Below are positions 3,401 to 52,200 of a stretch of 64,000 nt of DNA, piece after piece. A program made the translations under genes and the position numbers. The stretch spans positions 57,746,547-57,810,546 of the forward strand of contig CM040741.1 of NCBI GenBank assembly GCA_022829145.1, given 5' to 3'. The notes below the pieces were generated by a model. That model saw only the letters and a list, made by a program, of their open reading frames with translations. It was not told the origin of the DNA and did no database searches. This stretch comes from Albula goreensis (Eukaryota; Chordata; Actinopteri; Albuliformes; Albulidae). Position 1 is the stretch's first letter. Each line of letters opens with the position of its first letter.

Positions 3401-3740
3401 GAATATGTATATCATTTGGGTTGTTATATATCATATAGGGTCATGATAGTGAGTAATGAGTGATGTGCCACATGTTTGAGTCAAACTTTAGTGTAGCTAA
3501 AATGCCAGTGACAATAAAACGTTTCATGAGGCATTGATCAGGCAGCCAGACTGTTGGACAGTTATTTGAAAACTGTTAACCTCAGTCCACTACCCAACTA
3601 CCCAACCCCCCAATTTTCATCAACCCCACCCTCCCCTTAGCAAACTTAAGCCTTCCCAAAGATTCCAGTCACCCCTGGTCTCCTGAGTACATTACTAGCT
3701 CATAAAACTATCTGACTACGTATTATTGGCTTCAGCTTAC
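499..3740 (-). other. ITGA1: ITGA1 intron 2 (3242 bp)
   Basis: A phase-2 intron with GT-AG ends, between exon 2 and exon 3. It holds a mariner-like MITE at about 827-1039. The rest is AT-rich unique sequence with a short alternating TA tract near 2340-2362 and a pyrimidine-rich stretch at about 2470-2600. No extra exon is seen on either strand. Confidence 0.88.
827..1039. mobile_element. Mariner-like MITE (about 213 bp) with ~20-28 bp terminal inverted repeats
   Basis: The left end reads GAGGTGCAGCTATTAAATAA from 828. The reverse complement of the right end reads GAGGTGTGGCTATTAAATAA from 1038. The two differ at 2 of 20 positions, and similarity continues weakly inward (ACGAGA against TAAGAC). 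A TA dinucleotide precedes the left end (825-826); the right flank has no clean TA. The interior is too short for a transposase and no transposase motif is intact. Size, TIR form and the A/T-rich ends fit a non-autonomous Tc1/mariner element, but the family name is inference. Confidence 0.75.
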
Positions 3741-3861
3741 CATTTCCCTTCACTGTTCTCAAACTGCTGGACAGTGTATCCAAACAAGTCATCCACTGAT
3801 CCATTGAACGTCATGCCATTTTTCTCATCCACATTAAATGACAACAAACAGTGAAGGAGAG
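3741..3861 (-). CDS. ITGA1: ITGA1 exon 2: end of signal peptide and first beta-propeller strand
   Basis: This is a 121-nt exon (2 + 39 codons + 2). Its acceptor is a long T-run followed by GTTGCAG, just above 3861; its donor is GTAAGC at 3740-3735. It encodes the last signal-peptide residues (LLHCLLS) and the mature N-terminus FNVDEKNGMTFNGSVDDLFG, then YTVQQFENSEGKW. The FGYTVQQ word and the trailing EGKW are hallmarks of integrin alpha-1 in the first FG-GAP repeat. The Trp codon is split TG|G across intron 2. An NGS sequon in the FNGSVDD stretch is a possible N-glycosylation site. Confidence is high because frame, phases and protein similarity agree. Confidence 0.96.
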
Positions 3862-34639: not shown

Positions 34640-35098
34640 TCTGTCCCAAAAACCTGTTTAGAATTAGATCTTCTCCATGCCAAACCCTAAACTTTGGAAC
34701 TCACTGCCAGAAAACATCAGAAGGGCATTGATACTCCCTACCTTAAAGTCCCTTTTAAAAGCCATCGGTTGAAACTGCTTTTTATCCTTTGTCATCATCT
34801 AAATTATATTTTAATGTTGTTCATGTATTTTGAATTGCACAAGCCTCATTTGAACCGTCTGTTTTGATTTTTGGCCGTATTTTAAGTGCATTTCTTCTGT
34901 CTTGTTAAATTACTCTTTTTCTCTCTGATTGTTATTTTATGTTGTACTATTTGGAAAGGTCTTTGAACACCATGAAAGAAAAGTACTTTTTGATTTTTAT
35001 TAGTTTTATTATTTAGTTCTGTTTTGATCGCACAATATGCATCAGCACTCCCAAGTTGAAAATAAATTAATAAATACATACATACATAAATAAATACA
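34640..35098 (+). mobile_element. 5'-truncated non-LTR retrotransposon (LINE), 3' end
   Basis: From about 34674 to the TGA at 34770-34772 the plus strand encodes MPNPKLWNSLPENIRRALIL and then PTLKSLLKAIG. The KLWNSLPxxIRxA word followed by xLxxFKSxLK-like sequence is the classic C-terminus of the reverse-transcriptase ORF of L2/CR1/Rex-type LINEs. A 3' UTR of about 285 bp follows, then a simple A-rich tail (AAATAAAT, CATACATA, 35058-35098) as found on such elements. The 5' part is missing. Exact family not determined. Confidence 0.7.
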
Positions 35099-38000
35099 GA
35101 GTGGGCAGTCTGATTGGTGCTCCACAGACACCTGGTCCCAGTTGTGGTCCTCATCCTGCCCCCATCTGGGCCGCTGCAGGACAGATTTGTGGTGTCAGTT
35201 GGAGAGGTCTGCCAGCTCCTCTTAAAGGAGATCTGTGTTACTCCACCACTTGCCTGGTGCTGTGATCTGGCCTTGTACCATATGGGGGAGGTGAGCCATG
35301 AGTGAATGTGTGGTGTCCTTTTCCTCGCAGCCAGCTGGCCAAGGAACTGCTCTCAAAACCGAGCAGGAGTCGCACAGCACATCTCACTCTGTGGTCTATG
35401 CCATGCTTCTGCTGGATGATTGTACTCTGTATTGTAAATCACAACAGGATGATTTCATCCTACCCATGTTGGTACTTATGGGCTTAACTCTCATGACTGC
35501 AAATTACTTCCATCATTGGCAATCAGGGTTTTTAATAAAGTAAATCAGACATCTAAGTGTATTTACAGGTTAATATTCTCATGGCTAATTGGGCTCAGTA
35601 TCCATAACCCGCAACAGACTCCCACTTTTTTTCTATGCCCCAGCTAAATGTTTATGAATACAGTACGGTTTCTAACTACTCAAAAGGTGAACTTGTTCTT
35701 TGCAAATCTGCATAATGCCAATTACATCTGAAGATTAAGAGTTTGGTTATGTTCTTGCATATTTAATTCATATTTGCATACTACTTACAGTTAACAAACC
35801 TGCATCAGTCTGTGGCTGATTCTGAAACTAGTATGCAAAAGTGAACAGGCACAGAAATATCCTCAGGGCTTTCTTCCATGATTGAGAAGACTGATAAGCA
35901 TTCAATGAACTGAGGAGTGCGTCCATGTTGTTATTCACAGAAAAGCATATTTGTTTTGTCAACAAATAGCACTTGTTGTAAAAATATGATTAGAAATACT
36001 GATGGCCTCTTTTCAAAATGCTTCAAGCTTCAGTAAGCTTCATACATGTATGCAGTATACGAATAAAGTCAACGTTCATGGCATAGCGACCAAAAATCTA
36101 ATTATGAAATCAATTTGTCTTTTACACATTGGTACAGTAGCTAGTTATTGCTAAATTTTCTCTGAATGATCTTTGGAGTATAGCAAGGTAAAAACCAAAG
36201 GAGGTCCTGGGTCTGTAATCTTGACATATTTCAGACCATATTTGGTTTCTGGATTAGGATTTAACCCAAAAACACACTTAGAGCTGCTCAGCAAGCTGGC
36301 AGTGAGAGCAGAGAGACAGGAGTGGTACTCTTAGTGCATTACCAGCAGGGTTTTATAAGGGGTTTTAAGGGGGATTTATTTGCTTGAAGAACAATTTCGA
36401 ATTTTAGACAATAGCCTGTGCAAATGGGTTATCTGTGGGAGGGAATGTTTGTTGATAATTTCATAAGAAACTTGTTTGTTACAAAAGAGAAATACATCAC
36501 AAAAATTAATTCCAAAATATTATACTCCAGTTTTTCTATTATTGTAGAGAAGAATATACCAATTTTAGATTATTATCTGAGATTGTATTATATTATGTTT
36601 CAAAAGCAGACACAATTTATTGATTGTTTGCTTTCCCGAAGAGAGGCTATATCCTAAGAGCACTCAGATTGATTTGTTTAAAAAAGAGAGGTAATGATTT
36701 CTCTCCATGAGGAAAATAGGTAACCTGTATAAAAGCTGGAAGCTCAGGCTAAAGATTCTGCTATCCAGAGAGCCACAGATTCAATAGGGTCAGCCTCACA
36801 GGATTTCAAAAATTATGACTGTGGGCCTTAATGTTGGCTATAGATAAACAGACAGCAAAGAATAAAGAATACAATATTCACATGTTACTAGCATCTGTGA
36901 CATAAACAGAGAGTGAAAGGAGATTATTCAAGCATAAATGCAGCTTTAACTTTCTTAATTCCTGTAGGCATAATCTAATCGAATCTTCTTCAATCCAATT
37001 GTTAATGCTGGCTACACATGGGATTAAAATGGTGCTTTGCTTTGTGGGCCATTTGGCAGTGAGGTAGCATATGTGGTGGATATTCGTGGACTGGCATGAA
37101 GAAGAATGAGATGAGAATCAGAGAAAAAGTGAACATGCTGGTTTTTGATCAGCCTAAAGCCTGAATTGGCATTGATTTATTTGGGCTTGATCATGGCGCG
37201 GCATGGATCTAACTATTACCAAATATAATTTTCATCTAGCAATTTGTGGATATTTTGTGACACTTAAGTAAAAGACCCCTTTGTGTTGTCCATAACTTTT
37301 CACAAGACATTTTAAAAGTAACATATTTCATCAGATCAAATTGTTTCATTTTATATACTTTCCAACTCATTCTATATGAGTATACATTAGTTATAAATGA
37401 ATGAATATAGTTTTTCCTAACATTTACCAAAATGTTTTACTGGGTACACAGGCTTCCCTTGATCATTCATGCCACCATGGCATTAACAACATTATTATCC
37501 ACAAATCTTTATTAAGTCAAATGAGAGCATTTGTAGGGTAGACAGCTTAGACCGCACTGCTCTTTTGCCCACTATGCCTGGCTTGGTTATGTGATTGAGA
37601 TTGATTCTGATACCCACCATCTTGGCCCACCTCTGACCCGAAGCTGTGGCTTTGTCACTGCCGATGCCTGTGTCATGATCACAGTCATGTTAAATAGGAA
37701 ATGGGTTGCTTGCGTAAGAGCTTTACCCTAAATGGGGATTCAGGCTATAACATGGAGATGGAAATGTTTGATAGCTGGATTAGACTTTCACTGACTAGAA
37801 GAAAATTGCAAAGAGCTTAAGTGTGTTAATACACCATTATTACTGATCCATGCTATGTCACTGGGAAGGCATATATTGATATGATTGCTCTCATGCCATT
37901 GTATAATATCCTATTTCCCTTGTCGACATTGCTTCACAATGAGTATATGTCTGTATTACAGAATATATATTTGTGTGATATTATAATTCTTAAAGAAATG

Positions 38001-41170: not shown

Positions 41171-43500
41171 TAAAAAGTTCAAGTACATTATATTCTATAA
41201 CCTTTCATACACATTCAAACTGATTATACAGATTTGCCAGGTTGTTCTCATAGCAGACTACCTTCTTGGTTGTGCTAATTTTACAATGAACTGATACATA
41301 CAGTCTTTGTGGCTTTGACAGTGAGATCAATACATTAAAGATTTTTGTTTGCAATTGCATATATAAAAATGATTAGCTATATATATAAAGCATATATAAA
41401 TTAACATTGTTATCAATTTCACATTCCATGATATCTGATTTCAACTACTTCAACTACAGGTATTAAAGACAACATTTTTCCCTAAAAAATATCAATAACC
41501 ATGCTCAATCATTACTAATTATGCATTGGCAGTCTGAGTCAGAAGACTTCTGACTCTATTAGTCATGTCATGTCTGTATAATATTTAGGGCACTCGGATG
41601 GAGTGCCTAACACTGAGTGCCAAAAAACTCACCTTATTTCAGCATAAAATCCTGACAGCTCCTATATGTTTGGCAACCCAGTTGGATGACTCATAATAAC
41701 CTATTGGGTTGGCCAATGACCAAACATTGGAAGAGGTGTTTCCTGTCCCCTTGTGGTCCAGCAACTCTTCTGGTTGACTGGGTTCCTGCAATATGCATAC
41801 CTCAGCTTAAAATAAATACAGCCATCCATTGTGCACAGCTCAGTTACCTGACTGGTGAATAATACAAACTAATACAGAGCAATTTCTGTTAATTATTCAT
41901 ATTTGATTTCAGTTTATTTAGAGTTCTGTTATTTGCAGAATTAACTGGAGGTTGCTTGAGGTTTTGCCTTGTCATTAACATTTCTAGTATGCGTTCTGTT
42001 GACCTCATCTTCTGCAAGTTGCGATTTCTAAATAAAGTTTTACCTGTTTATCAATTCTTTTGGTTTTTTCCAGGAAGCCAAAGCTAAGATGCAGAATTAA
42101 AAAATGTCTCAGCTGGGAGGGCTCAGTTCCAGGATCTAAGAGAGAAACAAAGCAGAGCGTGTCGGTGATTTTGGAAAATGGAGACAGGAACTAACTCCCC
42201 CTTGTTATTTTCCCATACACATTGTACCTATGGTGAAACAGGAGTGGGACACCCCATTTCCTGAGTCTACTCATGCGAGGCACTTATAACGTCTCAATGT
42301 CTCTATTGGAATTTATGTAACTGGCAATATGACAAAAATATGTATTATTTCAATGCTTCTGATCCAGCAATATTCACCTGTTGTTCTCCATATGTTTCTC
42401 ATTACATTCAGTGTTTCAAGTCATTAATCAGCCATTGAAATCTGCATGCTTTCTGGACAGATGTGCATTAGTTTATATTTGTCCATGATAATTTATTTCC
42501 CTCACAGTTTCCCTTGGAAATAAATTATGGGATTTTTCAGTCCACTGTAGGAACTCTAAACAATACACATCCTGCTTTGAAATGCAATTGAACATCTGGT
42601 CAGCACATGAAAAACATAAATGGGTGCAATTAAATGAGAAAAACAGATTATATTGTTTGTGAAAGCTTAGCTGTGAAAACTGAAATCCATTATGCTAAGC
42701 GTGAATTAAATTATGTTATGAAACAAATCCATCTTTTTCTAAGGATGTATTGAGCATATCCAATAAGACAGGCTCTCCAAGAATGGTCATGTTATTATAT
42801 TGGTACTGGATACTTTAACACTTGTCTCTGCTTCACATAAGAATTACTGCTAAGGTCTTTGGGCCTTTGAGCTCTTTGATTTTGGGTCTGAAAATTATAG
42901 TGCTTTTGTTCCTCATATCACACATAGTTTGACTAAGTAACAGTGTGATGATCATTTTTGAGGAACATCTAAATGTTTGCTACTTTATATCTTAAGTTCA
43001 TAAGTGAATTTTGTTTTTCCATGTTTCATGTGTAATATGTTTAACCAAAATATGTCACACCAAACTAATATATTTCTATACAACTATTAACCAATAATAT
43101 AAGGAAAAAGCAATAGACTGTCTATTAAAATAGTACAAAAGGGTGGAATGATTCAAATATCAATTGAATCCAAGTGATTGCAGAAGCAGGCATTTCCATT
43201 TATTACAAGAATACTTGAGACCTATTATTTCAGCCACGGTTTTTTATTATGTGCATATATTAGCAAATGAGATGGAGGGGGTAATTGAAAGCTAAGCAAA
43301 AGCCACATTTGCCATATAAAATGTCATACTATAACACAGTAGAGTCTACCACATTGTATGTGTGCCAAAAGAAAAAAACTATTAAAATTGCATTTATTAT
43401 CTAACTGTATAATACATATGGCAGCTTTCTGTACATGTGAGAGAAAGAATGCTTATTGCTTATTGTATCCTATTTTGTGACACTCAGCATGCTCCTAAAG
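41171..43500. other. Intergenic AT-rich sequence
   Basis: No gene seen. Includes a perfect 13-bp inverted repeat at 42488-42528 and TA-rich patches near 41360-41400. Confidence 0.55.
42488..42528. repeat. Perfect 13-bp inverted repeat with 15-nt spacer
   Basis: ATAATTTATTTCC at 42488-42500 and its exact reverse complement GGAAATAAATTAT at 42516-42528. No transposon features or target-site duplication are visible. Confidence 0.75.
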
Positions 43501-44243
43501 GTAAATTTATTTAGAAATATTTCTGCAGTTTAAATATCCCAAAGACGGACACTCTATTCTTGTGTGTCCGAGCGATTCTCACAGTGTAGTTCTCACTGTG
43601 AGTGTTACTCTGGTCATGCCTCATTTCACCTTGTCTGTCTCTGAGAGTAAACACAGCTCCAGTGTTGGCTGATTCAGGGGCAGAGCCTGTTGTCTGCATC
43701 ACTCTGAGAGTCAGAGGGAACTGGGTCAGCTTTAGCTGAACCAAGGGGAGGACAGTCATGACATCTGCTAAACACAGCAAGGAAAATAGTTCAATAGACA
43801 TGTCAGTACCAAAGCAGTGGTACTATAGTGTTAACTGTCTTACTGTGGAATTTGCCAGAAACTGTAGCATCTTCCTGTCCAGCACAATTCCCAGTCTGGC
43901 CTCCCTTTTGATGCTGTGTCTCCCACCCATTCTTCCAACACTCTGCTGCATTCCTGGTCCTCAAGTTCCCCTCCAACTCCCCCACTTATATGAAACCCCT
44001 ATCTCTCCTCAGCTCCCTCCGCTGGTGACCAGATGTAACCTGCAACTTTGTGAAGTTAGTATTAACATACTGTGCCCTAGACAACACTGCTCCTAATTCA
44101 TCTCCTCCTACGCCCCTGCCTGCACTCTCCACCACTCTGATGCCGGCCATCTGTCTGTCCCTCACCTCAACCGCCCCAGGGCTCAGGGTCACATATTTCC
44201 ATCTGTGGTTCCTAAAGGGTGAAAGCAGCTGAGGATATTCCCT
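43501..44243. other. Unusual pyrimidine/C-rich block, function unknown
   Basis: A GC-richer island in AT-rich DNA. It begins with a perfect 9-bp hairpin, CTCACAGTG/CACTGTGAG, at 43578-43586 and 43594-43602. From about 43870 to 44190 the plus strand is strongly C/T-rich. Open frames occur on both strands (43511-43801 minus, 43758-44096 plus, 43986-44258 minus), but none has a domain I recognise. It runs directly into the 60-bp minisatellite, so it may be part of an old repeat or a decayed gene. Confidence 0.4.
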
Positions 44244-44482
44244 ACTGCCAAAACACAAGAGTCATCTCTCTGACTCCACCGAGCCTTCTGCAAGTTATTC
44301 ACTACTGCCAAAGCACAATCGTCAGTCTTCATATCTACTGAGGCTTCAGAATGTTATGCACCACTGCCAAAACACAAGAGTCGCTCTTTGCCTTTACTGA
44401 GCCTTCAGACAATTACTCAATAATGGCAAAACACCAGGGTCAATCTTTCATCACTATTGAGCCATCTGAAGATTCCTCCCAA
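44244..44482 (+). repeat. Degenerate ~60-bp minisatellite, four units
   Basis: Units start at 44244, 44304, 44363 and about 44423, with lengths of 60, 59, 60 and about 58-60. Each opens with ACTGCCAAAACACAAGAGTC or a variant and contains a GAGCCTTCTG/GAGCCTTCAG word. A partial, more diverged unit flanks each side. The period is close to 20 codons, but frames shift between units and include stops, so a protein repeat is unlikely now. Confidence 0.8.
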
Positions 44483-46540
44483 CAACCAGAACAATCTTAC
44501 TCTGGTTTTACTTTCTTTAATAACTTTTTTCCCCTATTTTTCTCCTCCAATGTGGCATGGCCACTCACAGGAAACTGTTTGGTTAACTATGGAGTGTGCA
44601 TGCACTGAAGGAAGGCTGTTCAGCTCATGTGGCTGTTTCAAGGTGGCCACAATCAACCCGAGAAGTCACAGCAGAGACATGAGACAGGGAAGGCATTACT
44701 GGTAAAAGATTATCTTCTATGGGGACACCTTTTCCACCCACTGTACCTCACTGGAGGATGATGCATGATTTATGTAGAAAAGGCTGAGTAATGTTAACTT
44801 CCATTACGTTCTGACAAGCTAAAATTGACAATGTCCTAAACTGGATTCCAAATTCTCCACTACAGTCAATGGAACTATAAGAAGCTATAGGGCATGTTGA
44901 TGCACTAAGAACAAGTGCTTCAGCTGAATGTCACTGGGGACCATCCACTCTGAATGTTACTCAGTTATAACATCATAGTTAGTTTTGTCCTCTAATGAGA
45001 ATTGAAATAGGGATGTGTATTATAACTAGTTTACAATATTCTAAATGTGGAAGGTAACTTCAAAAGTGCTTTTTAATTCTTTGCGCTAAAACCTCACAAG
45101 TAGTGCTTTTAATTATATGACCAACATCAACAGTCACTGGAACGCTGGTTTAAAGAAAATAACGTTATATAATATACACAAATTATTGAGCAGTAGGAGT
45201 GTGTTGTTATCGTTTTCACACAATGGTGACATCATGAATCAAACTGACCATTCCAATTGAACAGCAGGCCTGTTCTTAATCATGCATGATTGAACATCCA
45301 TGTTCTTATGTAAGATGGAAGATAATTCTTGTGTGATCTGAATTTCACAGACTACAATGGGCCAGCCCTGCCTATGAGAGCAGCATCAGGGAGCAATCAG
45401 AACTGAGTCAGGACTCACGAGGAGATAAAGGTCATTAGAAGGAATGAAGGTCTTTACAGGAATCTCTCACGCTCTTTCAAGTATGAACACATTTAGCAAC
45501 TTTGAGATGGTGTCATCTGATGAAACATCCAGTGAAAATGCACAGGGAGAAGAGAATTTATTTCCAGGAAATTTGAACATATAAAGTGAAGGATGATGTA
45601 CCCTCTGTTGGCCATTGCTAATATCAATTGTAAATCCTAACTTAGAACACCTGTTCAACGATGTTGAACAAATAACAGCTGCTGCTCTGACCTAAATCTC
45701 AATGGTTCACCTAGCAAGTTTATAACCATTCTCCTACATTGATGTTCACTCTCCCTTTTCCCCAAAACTGTGGGCTCATTACTCCATAACTACACCCCTC
45801 TGTATGTGCCTCATGACACTGTGCTAAGAGCCTGTTGGTGCTACAGTGGAAGAAGCAATTTTGCAAGCAGGCGGAATATCTAGTTTGCTTACTATAATTC
45901 AACAATAGGTTATAGTATGAAAACATGGTCGTGAGATAATGAAACTACTGCAGTTCCTTAATGTCAAAATCACTACACTCAGCTTCACAGCAATCACATC
46001 CCTGAGCTGTTCCTTACATACAGCCTATAGCTATACTGGTAGTTAGCTAGCAGGCTACTGTCATCAAGGCATCTGAATGTCATTTACAATTACCATATTT
46101 TTTTACAGTGTACATTTTAAAAATAAATAAGACAGCTGTTACATTTTATGTACATGGGCACAAACAATACCAATGCCAGCAAATTGTTTATTTAAAAAAA
46201 AAAGCATATTTATTTTGGAGCTTTGAAAAGGTGCTATAAAAAAGGATAAGGGTTCGTTTTTAAACAAACCAGCCAGATATAAATATTATCCCTGTTAAGT
46301 TGTTTTCCACCCAACATGACATTTTCTTTTCAGGTGAAGAGTGATTCCCAAGGAAAGAAGATGAATTCATCTAAAGACATTGAGTTTCGTTCCAACTCTT
46401 TCTGCTTACACTGTGAAGTCAAAAATAGTAATATGTGCAACAGCAAGATCAGAGCGACCAGCCAACCGAGCAACCATGAAAACACTTACGGATCACTGAA
46501 TCTCATGGATGAGCTATTAGTTTAATTCTCAACTCTTCAG
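44483..46540. other. Intergenic AT-rich sequence
   Basis: No coding or transposon evidence. A plus-strand acceptor-like ATTTTCTTTTCAG near 46321-46333 precedes a 60-codon frame without a domain. Confidence 0.5.
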
Positions 46541-46980
46541 GGACCTTTCACACATTTAAAAGAACCACGTATCTTTGAAAGAAAGGTCATTGATTGCGGA
46601 TGTGTTCTTTTAAAAGCCGTCCTCTAGGAAGATTTCAAAGGCCTCCACATTTTCGTACATTTCTCATGTTTCTTGAAATGGCTTTAATGTTACAGCACCT
46701 GCTTTACAGCCGGGATCTTTGAGAGCATTGGCTCGAGTATCCAGCTACAATTTTCCTCATTAGTGAATATTCAATTAAGGCTGCACATGGCCTGCATTGT
46801 TGAAGGAATTGGGTTAAAGGCAGGGTCACTTGATTGTTTGTTTGCATATTTTCCAGACGATTATTAAAGATTCCGCCTTTGATGTGAGCATTGAATAAAG
46901 GAGCCAGGTTTAAGATATCGAACACTTGACGCAAAATTAGTTACTGACATCAAGGCCTCGTACCAATTTGTCATTTTGGA
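46541..46980. promoter_or_regulatory. Candidate conserved non-coding element / enhancer (strong appearance)
   Basis: About 440 bp of mixed composition packed with recognisable words: TCF/LEF-like ATCTTTGAAA at 46571-46580, PBX/MEIS-like TTGATTG near 46590, E-box CACCTG at 46696-46701, CATTAGTG near 46759, CAATTAA at 46772-46778, FOX-like TGTTTGTTTGCAT near 46834 overlapping an octamer-like TTTGCATAT, and ATTATTAAAGATTCCGCC near 46860. There is no coding potential. Among the candidate enhancers in this desert it has the richest motif content by eye. Confidence 0.45.
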
Positions 46981-47893
46981 TTTCCCTTTTTTTCTTTATA
47001 CACTGTACCGTGATTGTTCTTCATGCAGAACTGAACCCTGAAGAGCCATGTTTCCAAAACTATTCTTGCAGCATGCAATGCTATTCCAGGAGATACAAAC
47101 TATTACAGAATAACTGATATGACATAACTTTTTATTCTAGAATTTGAAATAATAATTTCTTGTACAGTATCATGTACACATTTTATTTGCAAAATTACTG
47201 CTTAGGAGTAATAAATACTAATAAGTAATAAATAGATAAACTGTTACAAAAGGAAATGTATCTCTTTAATTTGAACTTGTTATACAGATGGAACATTGTC
47301 AGTAAGATGTCATGGTGGCTGCATTTTTAGATTTTTTTTTCTTTTTACAGTATACATTGGGAACCCACAAAGTTACCTCCAGGAAAGACTAAAGGAATAC
47401 CCAACCATGTTTTGAGTAGACAAACTTTATTTATCACGGATATAATACAACACCCACCAACTGTATACAATAGCTACAGTATTTTCAGTTTTCTTTATTT
47501 CACCAACAGAATGAAGAGGCTAAAATATCTTAATTTTTTAAACATGCAACATTGTTTTTAATTTACATTGTGTGTTGTGAACAAACTGTAGCTGTTACAT
47601 TATTACAACTGTTTCATTATAAACAAATGTATTTTTCCTGTTTATATATGTTGGGCATGTTGCTCTCAGTCAAAGGAATAACATGTATTTGTTTCATTTT
47701 TCTTCAGAAGCTCAAAGTGTGTCAGTATGTTTCAGTAAGTTTGTGATGTGTACTCTTTTGTTGTTGTACAGTTTAAATGTCACCAGTGTAATCAACAATG
47801 TATGTGACCACATTTACAGGATATATCTTTTCTAATTTCAATACAAAGATGTAATTTGTGCATGTGTGTATTTGTGTGTGTGTGCGCGTGTGC
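46981..47893. other. Intergenic AT-rich sequence ending in a GT-rich tract
   Basis: Unique AT-rich DNA. From about 47858 it becomes an imperfect GT/GC dinucleotide tract (GTGTGTGTGTGCGCGTGTGC), which leads into the tandem duplication. Confidence 0.55.
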
Positions 47894-48962
47894 ACGTGTG
47901 TGTGTGTGCGTTTGTGTCCCGCTTCATAGATCATTGGCTCTTTAAAAGTGAGGTTACGTTCTGATGCCAATGGCGCATAGTAAAGCCAAAATGATACCCT
48001 TATGAGACCATACGGTAACAGAGGGCAGTGACTCTTCCCTAAGGTCTTGTTAGGCTTAGCCACAATCTATTGCCAGGCACTGTTGGTGAAAAATGATACT
48101 CCTTCAATGTGGCTTAGGAGAGGGAGCTGAGATGATAGCGACAGGATGATGCAGATTACAGCAACTGTCCTGTAGCCATTGGTTTTCATTGTACCTCTCA
48201 TTACTGTCACATGGTTACTCTGTGTGTATATATAATACACATATTCAGGGAGACTGCTCTGAGTTTTATATTGCTTTAGATAGATCAATTAATGCCTCCT
48301 TTCATTGTGATACATATTTTACTTAGAAAAATGGAGAGTAGCTCTGCACATAAGCCAGCAAAGCATGTTCTTATGCATGTAATGTATGCTGCACTCATGT
48401 ATGACACTTCACTGAGCATGCTGATGAAAATTGTGAATACATTCACAAACCAAATGTGACAATGAGGCGAACTGGTCATTAGTTATAAATGTATTTACTT
48501 TGCCCAGTCACGAAATATTTAATGCAATCCACAAACAGATGCTGACTTTTCCTGGATATATAATATTCCTTCATATTAATACAGTTGGCTGAAAATGTGA
48601 CTATGCTCAACCTTCCTGGAATCAATTACCCTCAGTGGAATTTCAGCTCTAATAAAGCAGTTAAATGAGGCTTTATGAAGATGCAGCATTCACAATGTGC
48701 CAGCTGTGATTCCCATTATAAAAGACTGCATACAGCAGGTCAGATTGGAGCAAAGGCCACAGCATGACTGCGAACACGTCTCAGAAGCCGAAATGAGTTT
48801 CATTTCAAAACTGAGCGCTGAATGAAGACTAGCAATGTGAATGCATGTGAAAGGCATGCAAGAAATGCAGATTTAAACTGACTCAGGAGTGTGACGGAAT
48901 ACTGTAAACGCTGCCTTCTAACTGCTTCTTAGAAGCCAGTGATCAAATATTGTGTGTGTGCG
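47894..48962 (+). repeat. Tandem duplication, unit 1 (1069 bp)
   Basis: Begins ACGTGTGTGTGTGTGCG and ends AAATATTGTGTGTGTGCG. It repeats head-to-tail in unit 2 at a 1071-1072 bp offset. By eye I count four substitutions and a few small indels: C/T in GAGACTGCTCTG, T/C in TTGTGATACAT, C/T in ACTGGTCATT, G/A in AGTCACGAAA, a single C insertion in GTGTGACGG/GTGTGACCGG, and a GT-count change at the left end. The unit holds unique AT-rich sequence and an enhancer-like block (about 48590-48880). No coding potential. Confidence 0.97.
48590..48880. promoter_or_regulatory. Candidate regulatory element inside duplication unit 1
   Basis: A base-balanced segment with GGAATCAATTACCCTCAG near 48618, CTCTAATAAAGC near 48646, E-box CAGCTG near 48702, GAGCAAAGGCCACAGC near 48748 and CGAACACGTCTC near 48771. 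It looks like the other candidate non-coding elements. Its exact partner lies at about 49662-49952. Confidence 0.35.
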
Positions 48963-50034
48963 ACGTGTGTGTGTGTGTGCGTTTGTGTCCCGCTTCATAG
49001 ATCATTGGCTCTTTAAAAGTGAGGTTACGTTCTGATGCCAATGGCGCATAGTAAAGCCAAAATGATACCCTTATGAGACCATACGGTAACAGAGGGCAGT
49101 GACTCTTCCCTAAGGTCTTGTTAGGCTTAGCCACAATCTATTGCCAGGCACTGTTGGTGAAAAATGATACTCCTTCAATGTGGCTTAGGAGAGGGAGCTG
49201 AGATGATAGCGACAGGATGATGCAGATTACAGCAACTGTCCTGTAGCCATTGGTTTTCATTGTACCTCTCATTACTGTCACATGGTTACTCTGTGTGTAT
49301 ATATAATACACATATTCAGGGAGACTGTTCTGAGTTTTATATTGCTTTAGATAGATCAATTAATGCCTCCTTTCATTGTGACACATATTTTACTTAGAAA
49401 AATGGAGAGTAGCTCTGCACATAAGCCAGCAAAGCATGTTCTTATGCATGTAATGTATGCTGCACTCATGTATGACACTTCACTGAGCATGCTGATGAAA
49501 ATTGTGAATACATTCACAAACCAAATGTGACAATGAGGCGAACTGGTTATTAGTTATAAATGTATTTACTTTGCCCAGTCACAAAATATTTAATGCAATC
49601 CACAAACAGATGCTGACTTTTCCTGGATATATAATATTCCTTCATATTAATACAGTTGGCTGAAAATGTGACTATGCTCAACCTTCCTGGAATCAATTAC
49701 CCTCAGTGGAATTTCAGCTCTAATAAAGCAGTTAAATGAGGCTTTATGAAGATGCAGCATTCACAATGTGCCAGCTGTGATTCCCATTATAAAAGACTGC
49801 ATACAGCAGGTCAGATTGGAGCAAAGGCCACAGCATGACTGCGAACACGTCTCAGAAGCCGAAATGAGTTTCATTTCAAAACTGAGCGCTGAATGAAGAC
49901 TAGCAATGTGAATGCATGTGAAAGGCATGCAAGAAATGCAGATTTAAACTGACTCAGGAGTGTGACCGGAATACTGTAAACGCTGCCTTCTAACTGCTTC
50001 TTAGAAGCCAGTGATCAAATATTGTGTGTGTGCG
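48963..50034 (+). repeat. Tandem duplication, unit 2 (1072 bp)
   Basis: Second copy, abutting unit 1 with no spacer. It ends at the same GTGTGTGTGCG word as unit 1, after which single-copy sequence (TGTTGTTGTTGG) begins. Very high identity means either a recent duplication through the GT-rich ends or a false duplication in the assembly. Confidence 0.97.
49662..49952. promoter_or_regulatory. Candidate regulatory element inside duplication unit 2
   Basis: Identical or almost identical to 48590-48880. If the duplication is real, this organism carries two adjacent copies of the putative element. Confidence 0.35.
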
Positions 50035-50469
50035 TGTTGTTGTTGGTCTCTTGGACTGTAGTTCAGGTATTGTTGATTGTTGAACGTAATTAAGTCCCTT
50101 TGACTAATAATCATATCTAAATTCTGGCCAAATTGTTTCTAAAATTGGAAACAGTTGTGATACAAGTGGCCATCTGAAGCGGATTCTAGGTATGGGCTAA
50201 TTTATATGAGAGATACAGTCATATCTGAGAGAGGCATTTTAATGGTTTAATTTCCTGTCAAATTAGTCTCAAATTTAAAATAACAGCTGGTAAATGACAT
50301 TGAATAAAGGGTCAAATAAATATTATGCCTAAAATAAAGAGTACGTAACATAAAAGCTCTCATAATGTTACTGCATCTGCACTGAAAGGGTCATGTTTCA
50401 GAGAGGGTGATCTCCCTGTCAAAAAGCTCAGGAAAATGACTCTAAATCTGACTGTGGACTGTGCATTTC

Positions 50470-50576
50470 GGGCCTAATTCAGACGTGCACTTAAGTGTTT
50501 TTTCCACGATTTTATCATTGCGAGAATGGGAGACTTACGTGGAAAATGCACTTAAGTGCATGTCTGAATTTGGCCC
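50470..50576. mobile_element. Foldback MITE (107 bp) with 39-bp inverted arms
   Basis: Left arm 50470-50508 starts GGGCCTAATTCAGACGTGCA. The reverse complement of the right arm 50538-50576 starts GGGCCAAATTCAGACATGCA. The arms differ at only a few of 39 positions around a 29-nt centre. TTC directly flanks both ends and may be a 3-bp target-site duplication. Ends of GGGCC and a 3-bp duplication would fit a PIF/Harbinger-type MITE, but TTC is not the usual TWA target, so the superfamily is inference. Confidence 0.75.
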
Positions 50577-51630
50577 TTCATCAGCAGCAAGTGAAATATC
50601 AAATATTATAAATGTGTAATAAAGTACTTCAATATATCACCAATTCACTTCTCTTAGGAATCATTTGCCAACATATTAGAGAAACAGGACAAAGAGAATA
50701 CTGAAATACTGGAAACCAATTCAAAATATATGTATTACCCGTAGAAAGAGCTGAAACCAAAATCCACAGATTACCAGTTGTATTTCTGATATCTATAAAG
50801 TAAACAGATGGATACTGTTGCAAATATTCATAAGGAAGTAATAGGAACAATGCTTTGAAAGGATGAAACTAAAATTCAGCTCAGACATTCATTTAGCCAC
50901 ATAAATACACATATAACGTTTATTTTGACATTGCAAGTATTTTTTTTCATATCATTTGTTTTTGTTATACTATTGTAGATTATCTAAATAGATATTTGAA
51001 TGTCAAGGACTGCAACATGCCATTCCTCAATGTTTTCAATAGGTGGCACTTTCTTCAAAACAGTTTCAGCTCTAAGTACAGATTTACTGGAACTTTGTAT
51101 TTGATGCTAGCAAAAGTGGGAATAATATCAGGCAGCATCCTGAAGAACAACAGGGAAGATCCCATTTAAGACAATCAAATCACTTCACATATATTTTTAA
51201 AATGGATTTTCAAATATTGCTTTATTACATATTTCATACATGAGATAAACTTTCTTAAATTACCTCATGGCAAGTGGGCATTTCCCTTCACTCAAAGCCT
51301 AGGGACAGAAATGCATTATTCACATACAGCATTTAATCTTATTTAAATTTATTTAAAATATTACAACCTGCAGAGTGCAGTAGTAAGTGAGTCCCTCAGC
51401 AATGACACTGCATTGACAGCCATGCTTTTTGACCAATGTGAGAAGAGTGTATGGAGGGGGAGTGAATTGAATATATACTGTACAATGGCAACACTTGTGT
51501 CTTGTTCTGGGTTCAACCTGTCCCTCACAATCACACCTGGATTAAAGAAAAGATTTTCAATGAATGTAACATCATTATGCACTTAATATGTCAGGCGCAA
51601 AAACATGTCAATCTAAAGATCATCCTCTGG

Positions 51631-51631
<1 letters not shown>

Positions 51632-51663
<32 letters not shown>
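51632..51663. repeat. (CA)n microsatellite
   Basis: About 16 CA units, followed to 51730 by looser ACAC/ACAT-rich sequence. Confidence 0.97.
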
Positions 51664-51665
<2 letters not shown>

Positions 51666-51769
51666 GTCCTACGTACACATTCACAAGCATGTACATACAC
51701 ACATGCACAGACAGGGACACACACACCTACTCACATGTATGCACTCAGAGAGAGTGGCAAAAAGAGCAC

Positions 51770-52200
51770 AGGGGCATTTGTAACAGCTGCCACTCACGCA
51801 GCTCTGCAGAAGTCTATTTGACAGTAATATTTTGCTCGGCATGACATCTCATTTATTCCCAGTAATCATCATTTCTTTTACTCACCCTTCCCTTCCCTCC
51901 CTGTCATTTGTGATCTGGGTGGAAACTGGTCCTTCCAGACCAGTGCATTTTTTATCCTGCAGACTGGCGATGCCCGGGGGACCGGAGTGGGGATTTACAT
52001 CTTGCCGCCGAGTTTTCCCCTCCATTTGTTGGCATGCCAGGTCACTGCGCTGCTCCGCTGTCGCAGGGAAGATAATGGCTGCCGCACTCCCTCCCTCTTA
52101 TTACACACTCAGTGCCTCTGACCTTGCACAGGGCGCTGGAGGCTTTCTGATTTCTGACAACCGCCAGCTACCACCATTAGCCCTAACCTGAACCTGCCAA
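51770..52200. promoter_or_regulatory. Candidate conserved non-coding element, GC-rich
   Basis: The GC-richest block of the desert, with CpGs in GATGCCCGGGGGACCGGAG near 51968, TTGCCGCCGAG near 52002 and GCTGCTCCGCTGTCGC near 52049. Also GGAAGATAATGGCTGCCGC near 52067 with a GATA/YY1-like word. An open frame of 119 codons (51832-52191) spans it, but its residues look like chance and there is no domain. An enhancer or an unannotated promoter are the two main readings. Confidence 0.4.

Follow-up and report, generated by a model that had tools for sequence, protein, structure and literature searches.

Recent tandem duplications on the kilobase scale are frequent among structural variants. Those that are non-recurrent and end in microhomology are described by the terms MMEJ, FoSTeS/MMBIR, and serial replication slippage in the abstract of PMC3597517. 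According to PMC9516828, a false duplication in an assembly can be recognized by halved read depth, a gap separating the copies, discordant linked reads, and one-copy k-mers. PMC4598079 prints the sequence of the gel-shift probe for the mouse isl1 enhancer E1 (CREST1), which contains a Phox2 site. We analysed a 64,000-nucleotide stretch of Albula goreensis DNA (the window) that carries a duplicated block downstream of isl1, and compared the block with these systems.

Alignment and a direct-repeat search revealed that the block consists of two near-identical, abutting, head-to-tail copies on the plus strand, at 47896..48962 (copy 1; alignment, direct repeats D1 and D4) and 48967..50034 (copy 2, with one extra base near 49966; alignment, direct repeats). 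The near-perfect head-to-tail duplication of ~1.07 kb proposed in a first-pass annotation was thus borne out; its unit lengths of 1069 and 1072 bp hold as two ~1.07-kb units, with exact values that depend on the point at which the GT tract is cut. The start-to-start offset of the copies is 1071 bp and then 1072 bp. The same annotation had counted about four substitutions and a few small indels, and the copy bodies indeed differ by four substitutions, all of them transitions, and one 1-bp indel; the remaining small indels are confined to the GT-rich junction tract. The substitutions (copy 1/copy 2) are 48257 C/49328 T, 48311 T/49382 C, 48477 C/49548 T, and 48512 G/49583 A, and the indel is an extra C in copy 2 at ~49966. 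The last 68 bp of the two copies are identical.

Substitution divergence between the copies was ~0.37% over ~1067 bp (Poisson 95% range 0.10-0.96%). Under assumed per-site substitution rates (2e-9, 5e-9, or 1e-8 per year or generation), which span the range used for such estimates, the point estimates of age are 0.94, 0.38, and 0.19 million (years or generations), respectively. These values would be lower bounds if gene conversion had acted. The four substitutions are clustered within 256 bp, with no difference in the first 361 bases or in the 382 bases from the last substitution to the indel, a pattern that might be left by an older tandem duplication kept similar by gene conversion. However, the clustering is weak (P 0.044 for random placement, judged post hoc) and no other sign of age was found; we consider such an origin quite improbable.

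When the whole unit was used as a query against the 932-Mb assembly (208 contigs), both of the matches obtained were the two copies themselves. A 351-bp inner piece, searched assembly-wide at E up to 10, again matched the same two places and no others (2/2). With a 3-kb query around the block, the other matches, among those listed, fell on GT-rich parts of the query (350-421 and 1452-1489; 40 of 383 candidates scored). The body therefore has no other place among the assembly matches listed, and a transposable element or dispersed repeat was rejected on this ground. The tandem array contains two units only; a satellite or minisatellite array, for which at least three units are expected, was ruled out by this count. 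A search of the window against 4227 Rfam families gave no match, which ruled out a structured RNA at the block. Seven reading frames of the window were compared with Pfam, including one (48070-48288, minus strand) of the three frames that overlap the block and are 70 aa or longer. Six of the seven had no family at E 0.01; the frame at 34885-35352 had one match, Cep192_D8, at E 0.0065, far under the curated cut-off. With one of the three block-touching frames checked in this way, a coding duplication at the block is unlikely.

The background for tandem duplications was taken from the 264 kb around the block and from four 10-kb pieces of contig C4, which carries a second isl1 locus. In the 264 kb, we surveyed direct pairs with a minimum length of 60 bp and a maximum separation of 20 kb (E up to 1e-10). 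The duplicated block was the sole pair both longer than 150 bp and more than 95% identical; the other five of the six rows comprised four simple repeats and one 139-bp pair at 83%. Two of the four C4 pieces gave 20 self-match rows, all low-complexity repeats of 78-90% identity (21-51 distinct 4-mers). The window also holds a diverged tandem repeat at 44244-44470 (59-bp unit, 3.8 copies, 69% matches) and an inverted repeat at 50470-50576 (39-nt arms, 90% complementary, 29 nt apart), which may represent either a hairpin or a short, old transposon. CpG observed/expected over the whole window is 0.23, a low value for a fish.

Both outer ends of the block and the junction between the copies lie in GT-rich tracts, as the first-pass annotation had indicated for the starts and ends of the units. 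The left tract, at the outer end of copy 1, extends over 47857..47911 (plus strand; tandem-repeat rows 47857-47917); the junction, read by eye from the sequence, over 48950..48982 (plus strand); and the right tract, at the outer end of copy 2, over 50022..50036 (plus strand). The 13-bp sequence TGTGTGTGTGCGT is common to the left and right outer tracts exactly and in the same orientation, in keeping with the annotation's suggestion that short GT tracts had taken part in unequal exchange or template switching. The right tract has exact matches of 13 bp and 12 bp to two parts of the left tract. The junction is GT-rich, yet it matches neither outer tract exactly: by eye, it has 7 bp fewer and one GT more than the left tract, with a GT run of 14 bp versus 12 bp. 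It is compatible both with a join via the first part of the left tract followed by a 7-bp loss and with a homology-free join. In the 264 kb, 0.32% of positions have a 10-bp GT tract on the plus strand no more than 15 bp away. Of the pairs of positions separated by 1071 bp, 0.038% have a GT tract at both ends, with the duplicated block itself counted in; the expectation for two independent breakpoints both at such GT tracts is ~1e-5.

These tracts suggest that the duplication would have arisen between two GT-rich sequences ~1.07 kb apart with 12-13 bp in common. Homology of 12-13 bp is a poor substrate for classical unequal crossing-over. The most likely route would be replication slippage, template switching, or microhomology-mediated repair, and the junction tract may have been altered by slippage during or after the duplication event. 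As judged from sequence, slippage, template switching, end joining, and unequal exchange would all fit and are not separable.

The block sits in a 72.1-Mb contig, and there is no N in the surrounding 264 kb. The first-pass annotation had treated a recent duplication and an assembly artefact as both live. The artefact would be a false (heterotype) duplication, in which two alleles of one locus were put in tandem by the assembler. The allele-like divergence it had pointed to stood: 0.37% is within the allelic range, given heterozygosities of 0.22-0.95% for three species in PMC9516828. The same paper places 61-92% of newer assemblies' false duplications on the same scaffold. The ends of the block also lie in low-complexity tracts. 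On the other hand, gaps are given in that paper as a primary sign of false duplication, and no gap separates the copies. The copies end precisely and within short stretches at matching GT tracts, in line with a molecular event, and no haplotype contig was matched in the assembly search. The sequence leans to a real duplication (72-Mb contig, no N, 4/4 transitions, no match on another contig), and we regard a false duplication as unlikely.

We infer with reasonable confidence that the duplication is genuine and recent: ~1.07 kb of non-coding DNA from a single locus, in the itga1-isl1 interval, is present as two tandem copies that arose between GT-rich tracts. It is probably neutral, and its copy number may be polymorphic.

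The position of the block was established from neighbouring exons. A follistatin-like exon lies ~68 kb left of the window, and an integrin I domain ~45 kb left of it; of the solved structures, alpha-2 is the closest to this domain. The I domain of a second integrin, closest to alpha-1, lies just left of the window. Its first piece matched integrin alpha-1 at E 4e-14 versus 4e-9 for alpha-2; by whole-sequence score, the first-ranked row for this piece was a collagen VI alpha-3 chain (6e-18), in which no single stretch passed. A search with an integrin alpha-1 query placed itga1-like N-terminal exons at 360-491 and 3740-3838 (minus strand). In the human gene, mature integrin alpha-1 begins in exon 2, and exon 1 was not located here; the block is thus either in the first intron of itga1 or in the region that separates itga1 from isl1. 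The islet (isl1) homeodomain exon is at C1:57910375-57910551 (163829-164005 in window numbering; minus strand), and the block lies ~114 kb downstream of it. The order follistatin, itga2, itga1, isl1 is the same on human chromosome 5.

Four near-identical islet homeodomain exons were found in the assembly, at C1:57.9 Mb, C4:13.0 Mb, C1:25.7 Mb, and C15:16.8 Mb. The residues after the homeodomain are of isl1 type at C1:57.9 Mb and C4:13.0 Mb and of isl2 type at C1:25.7 Mb and C15:16.8 Mb. In DNA, the C4 exon is the closest to that at C1:57.9 Mb (87-90% in two pieces, versus 72-82% for the other two). Two isl1-type and two isl2-type loci would fit a teleost. A fifth, diverged islet-like homeodomain exon is present at C13:19100994-19101164 (67% to the query).

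The second isl1 locus was compared over 40 kb, in the four 10-kb C4 pieces, which lie downstream of its isl1 gene. From 33.3 to 56.9 kb of the window, 12 pieces, together 2834 of 23677 bases, matched the C4 locus at E up to 1e-5. The conserved pieces of the two loci are largely collinear, the exceptions being GT repeats and one local inversion. The pieces on either side of the block (42549-52193 versus C4:13109404-13112577, which is 4405-7578 of C4 piece L032) are inverted relative to their neighbours, and the window at 33-41 kb and 54-57 kb matches C4 on the opposite strand from them. The block thus lies within a segment that is locally inverted at one of the loci. The two inverted pieces are 9.1 kb apart at the locus of the block versus 2.5 kb on C4. 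The strongest conserved piece near the block, 51785-52193 (73% over 458 columns with L032:7125-7578), adjoins a CA repeat at both isl1 loci and has GC and CpG above its surroundings; the one reading frame of this piece searched against Pfam had no family.

This interval raises the possibility that the block is an isl1 or itga1 control element whose doubling was favoured. That the two isl1 loci have many conserved pieces in common here would agree with such a role, as would the strongly conserved piece, 1.75 kb from copy 2. However, the block (GT ends removed) had no match beyond chance in the 40 kb of the C4 locus (best E 0.33), although the pieces compared include the counterparts of both flanking conserved pieces, 42549-42725 and 51785-52193; this counts for little, because most of the interval has no match there either. 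A control element here may be lineage-specific, or may have been lost at C4. The mouse E1 probe also speaks against this role, with no match in the block. Its best alignment there was 24 of 43 bases, and a duplicated CREST1/E1 was rejected; to the right of the window, 39/43 bases matched at 144422-144464 (window numbering, minus strand), and 40 shuffled probes reached at most 29/43 in the same 264 kb. These values indicate the presence of an E1-like site; it lies ~94 kb from the block and, relative to the isl1 homeodomain exon, ~19 kb downstream. Overall, a favoured control element is very doubtful. We would give still less credence to the block being a lineage-specific control element of the isl1-itga1 landscape whose copy number varies in the population and affects the expression of isl1 or itga1.

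Most likely, the block is unremarkable non-coding DNA that was recently and really duplicated in tandem. The duplication alone means little; it is a tidy example of GT tracts marking both ends, and the block is a possible copy-number marker if it is segregating. The surrounding interval, with two isl1 loci and conserved pieces in order, is more useful than the duplication itself.

Among the described systems, the isl1 enhancer CREST1/E1, as presented in PMC4598079, resembles the block in lying in the same region downstream of isl1; but the E1-like site is ~94 kb away, outside the window. The false heterotype duplications of PMC9516828 are similar in having adjacent copies with allele-like divergence; unlike them, the block has no gap between its copies. 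Compared with non-recurrent microhomology-mediated tandem duplications (MMEJ, FoSTeS/MMBIR, serial replication slippage), the block differs in that its common sequence is a GT tract, its junction is slightly changed relative to the outer tracts, and its origin is read here from the sequence. It shares with them a short common end sequence, two direct copies, and the lack of a long flanking repeat.
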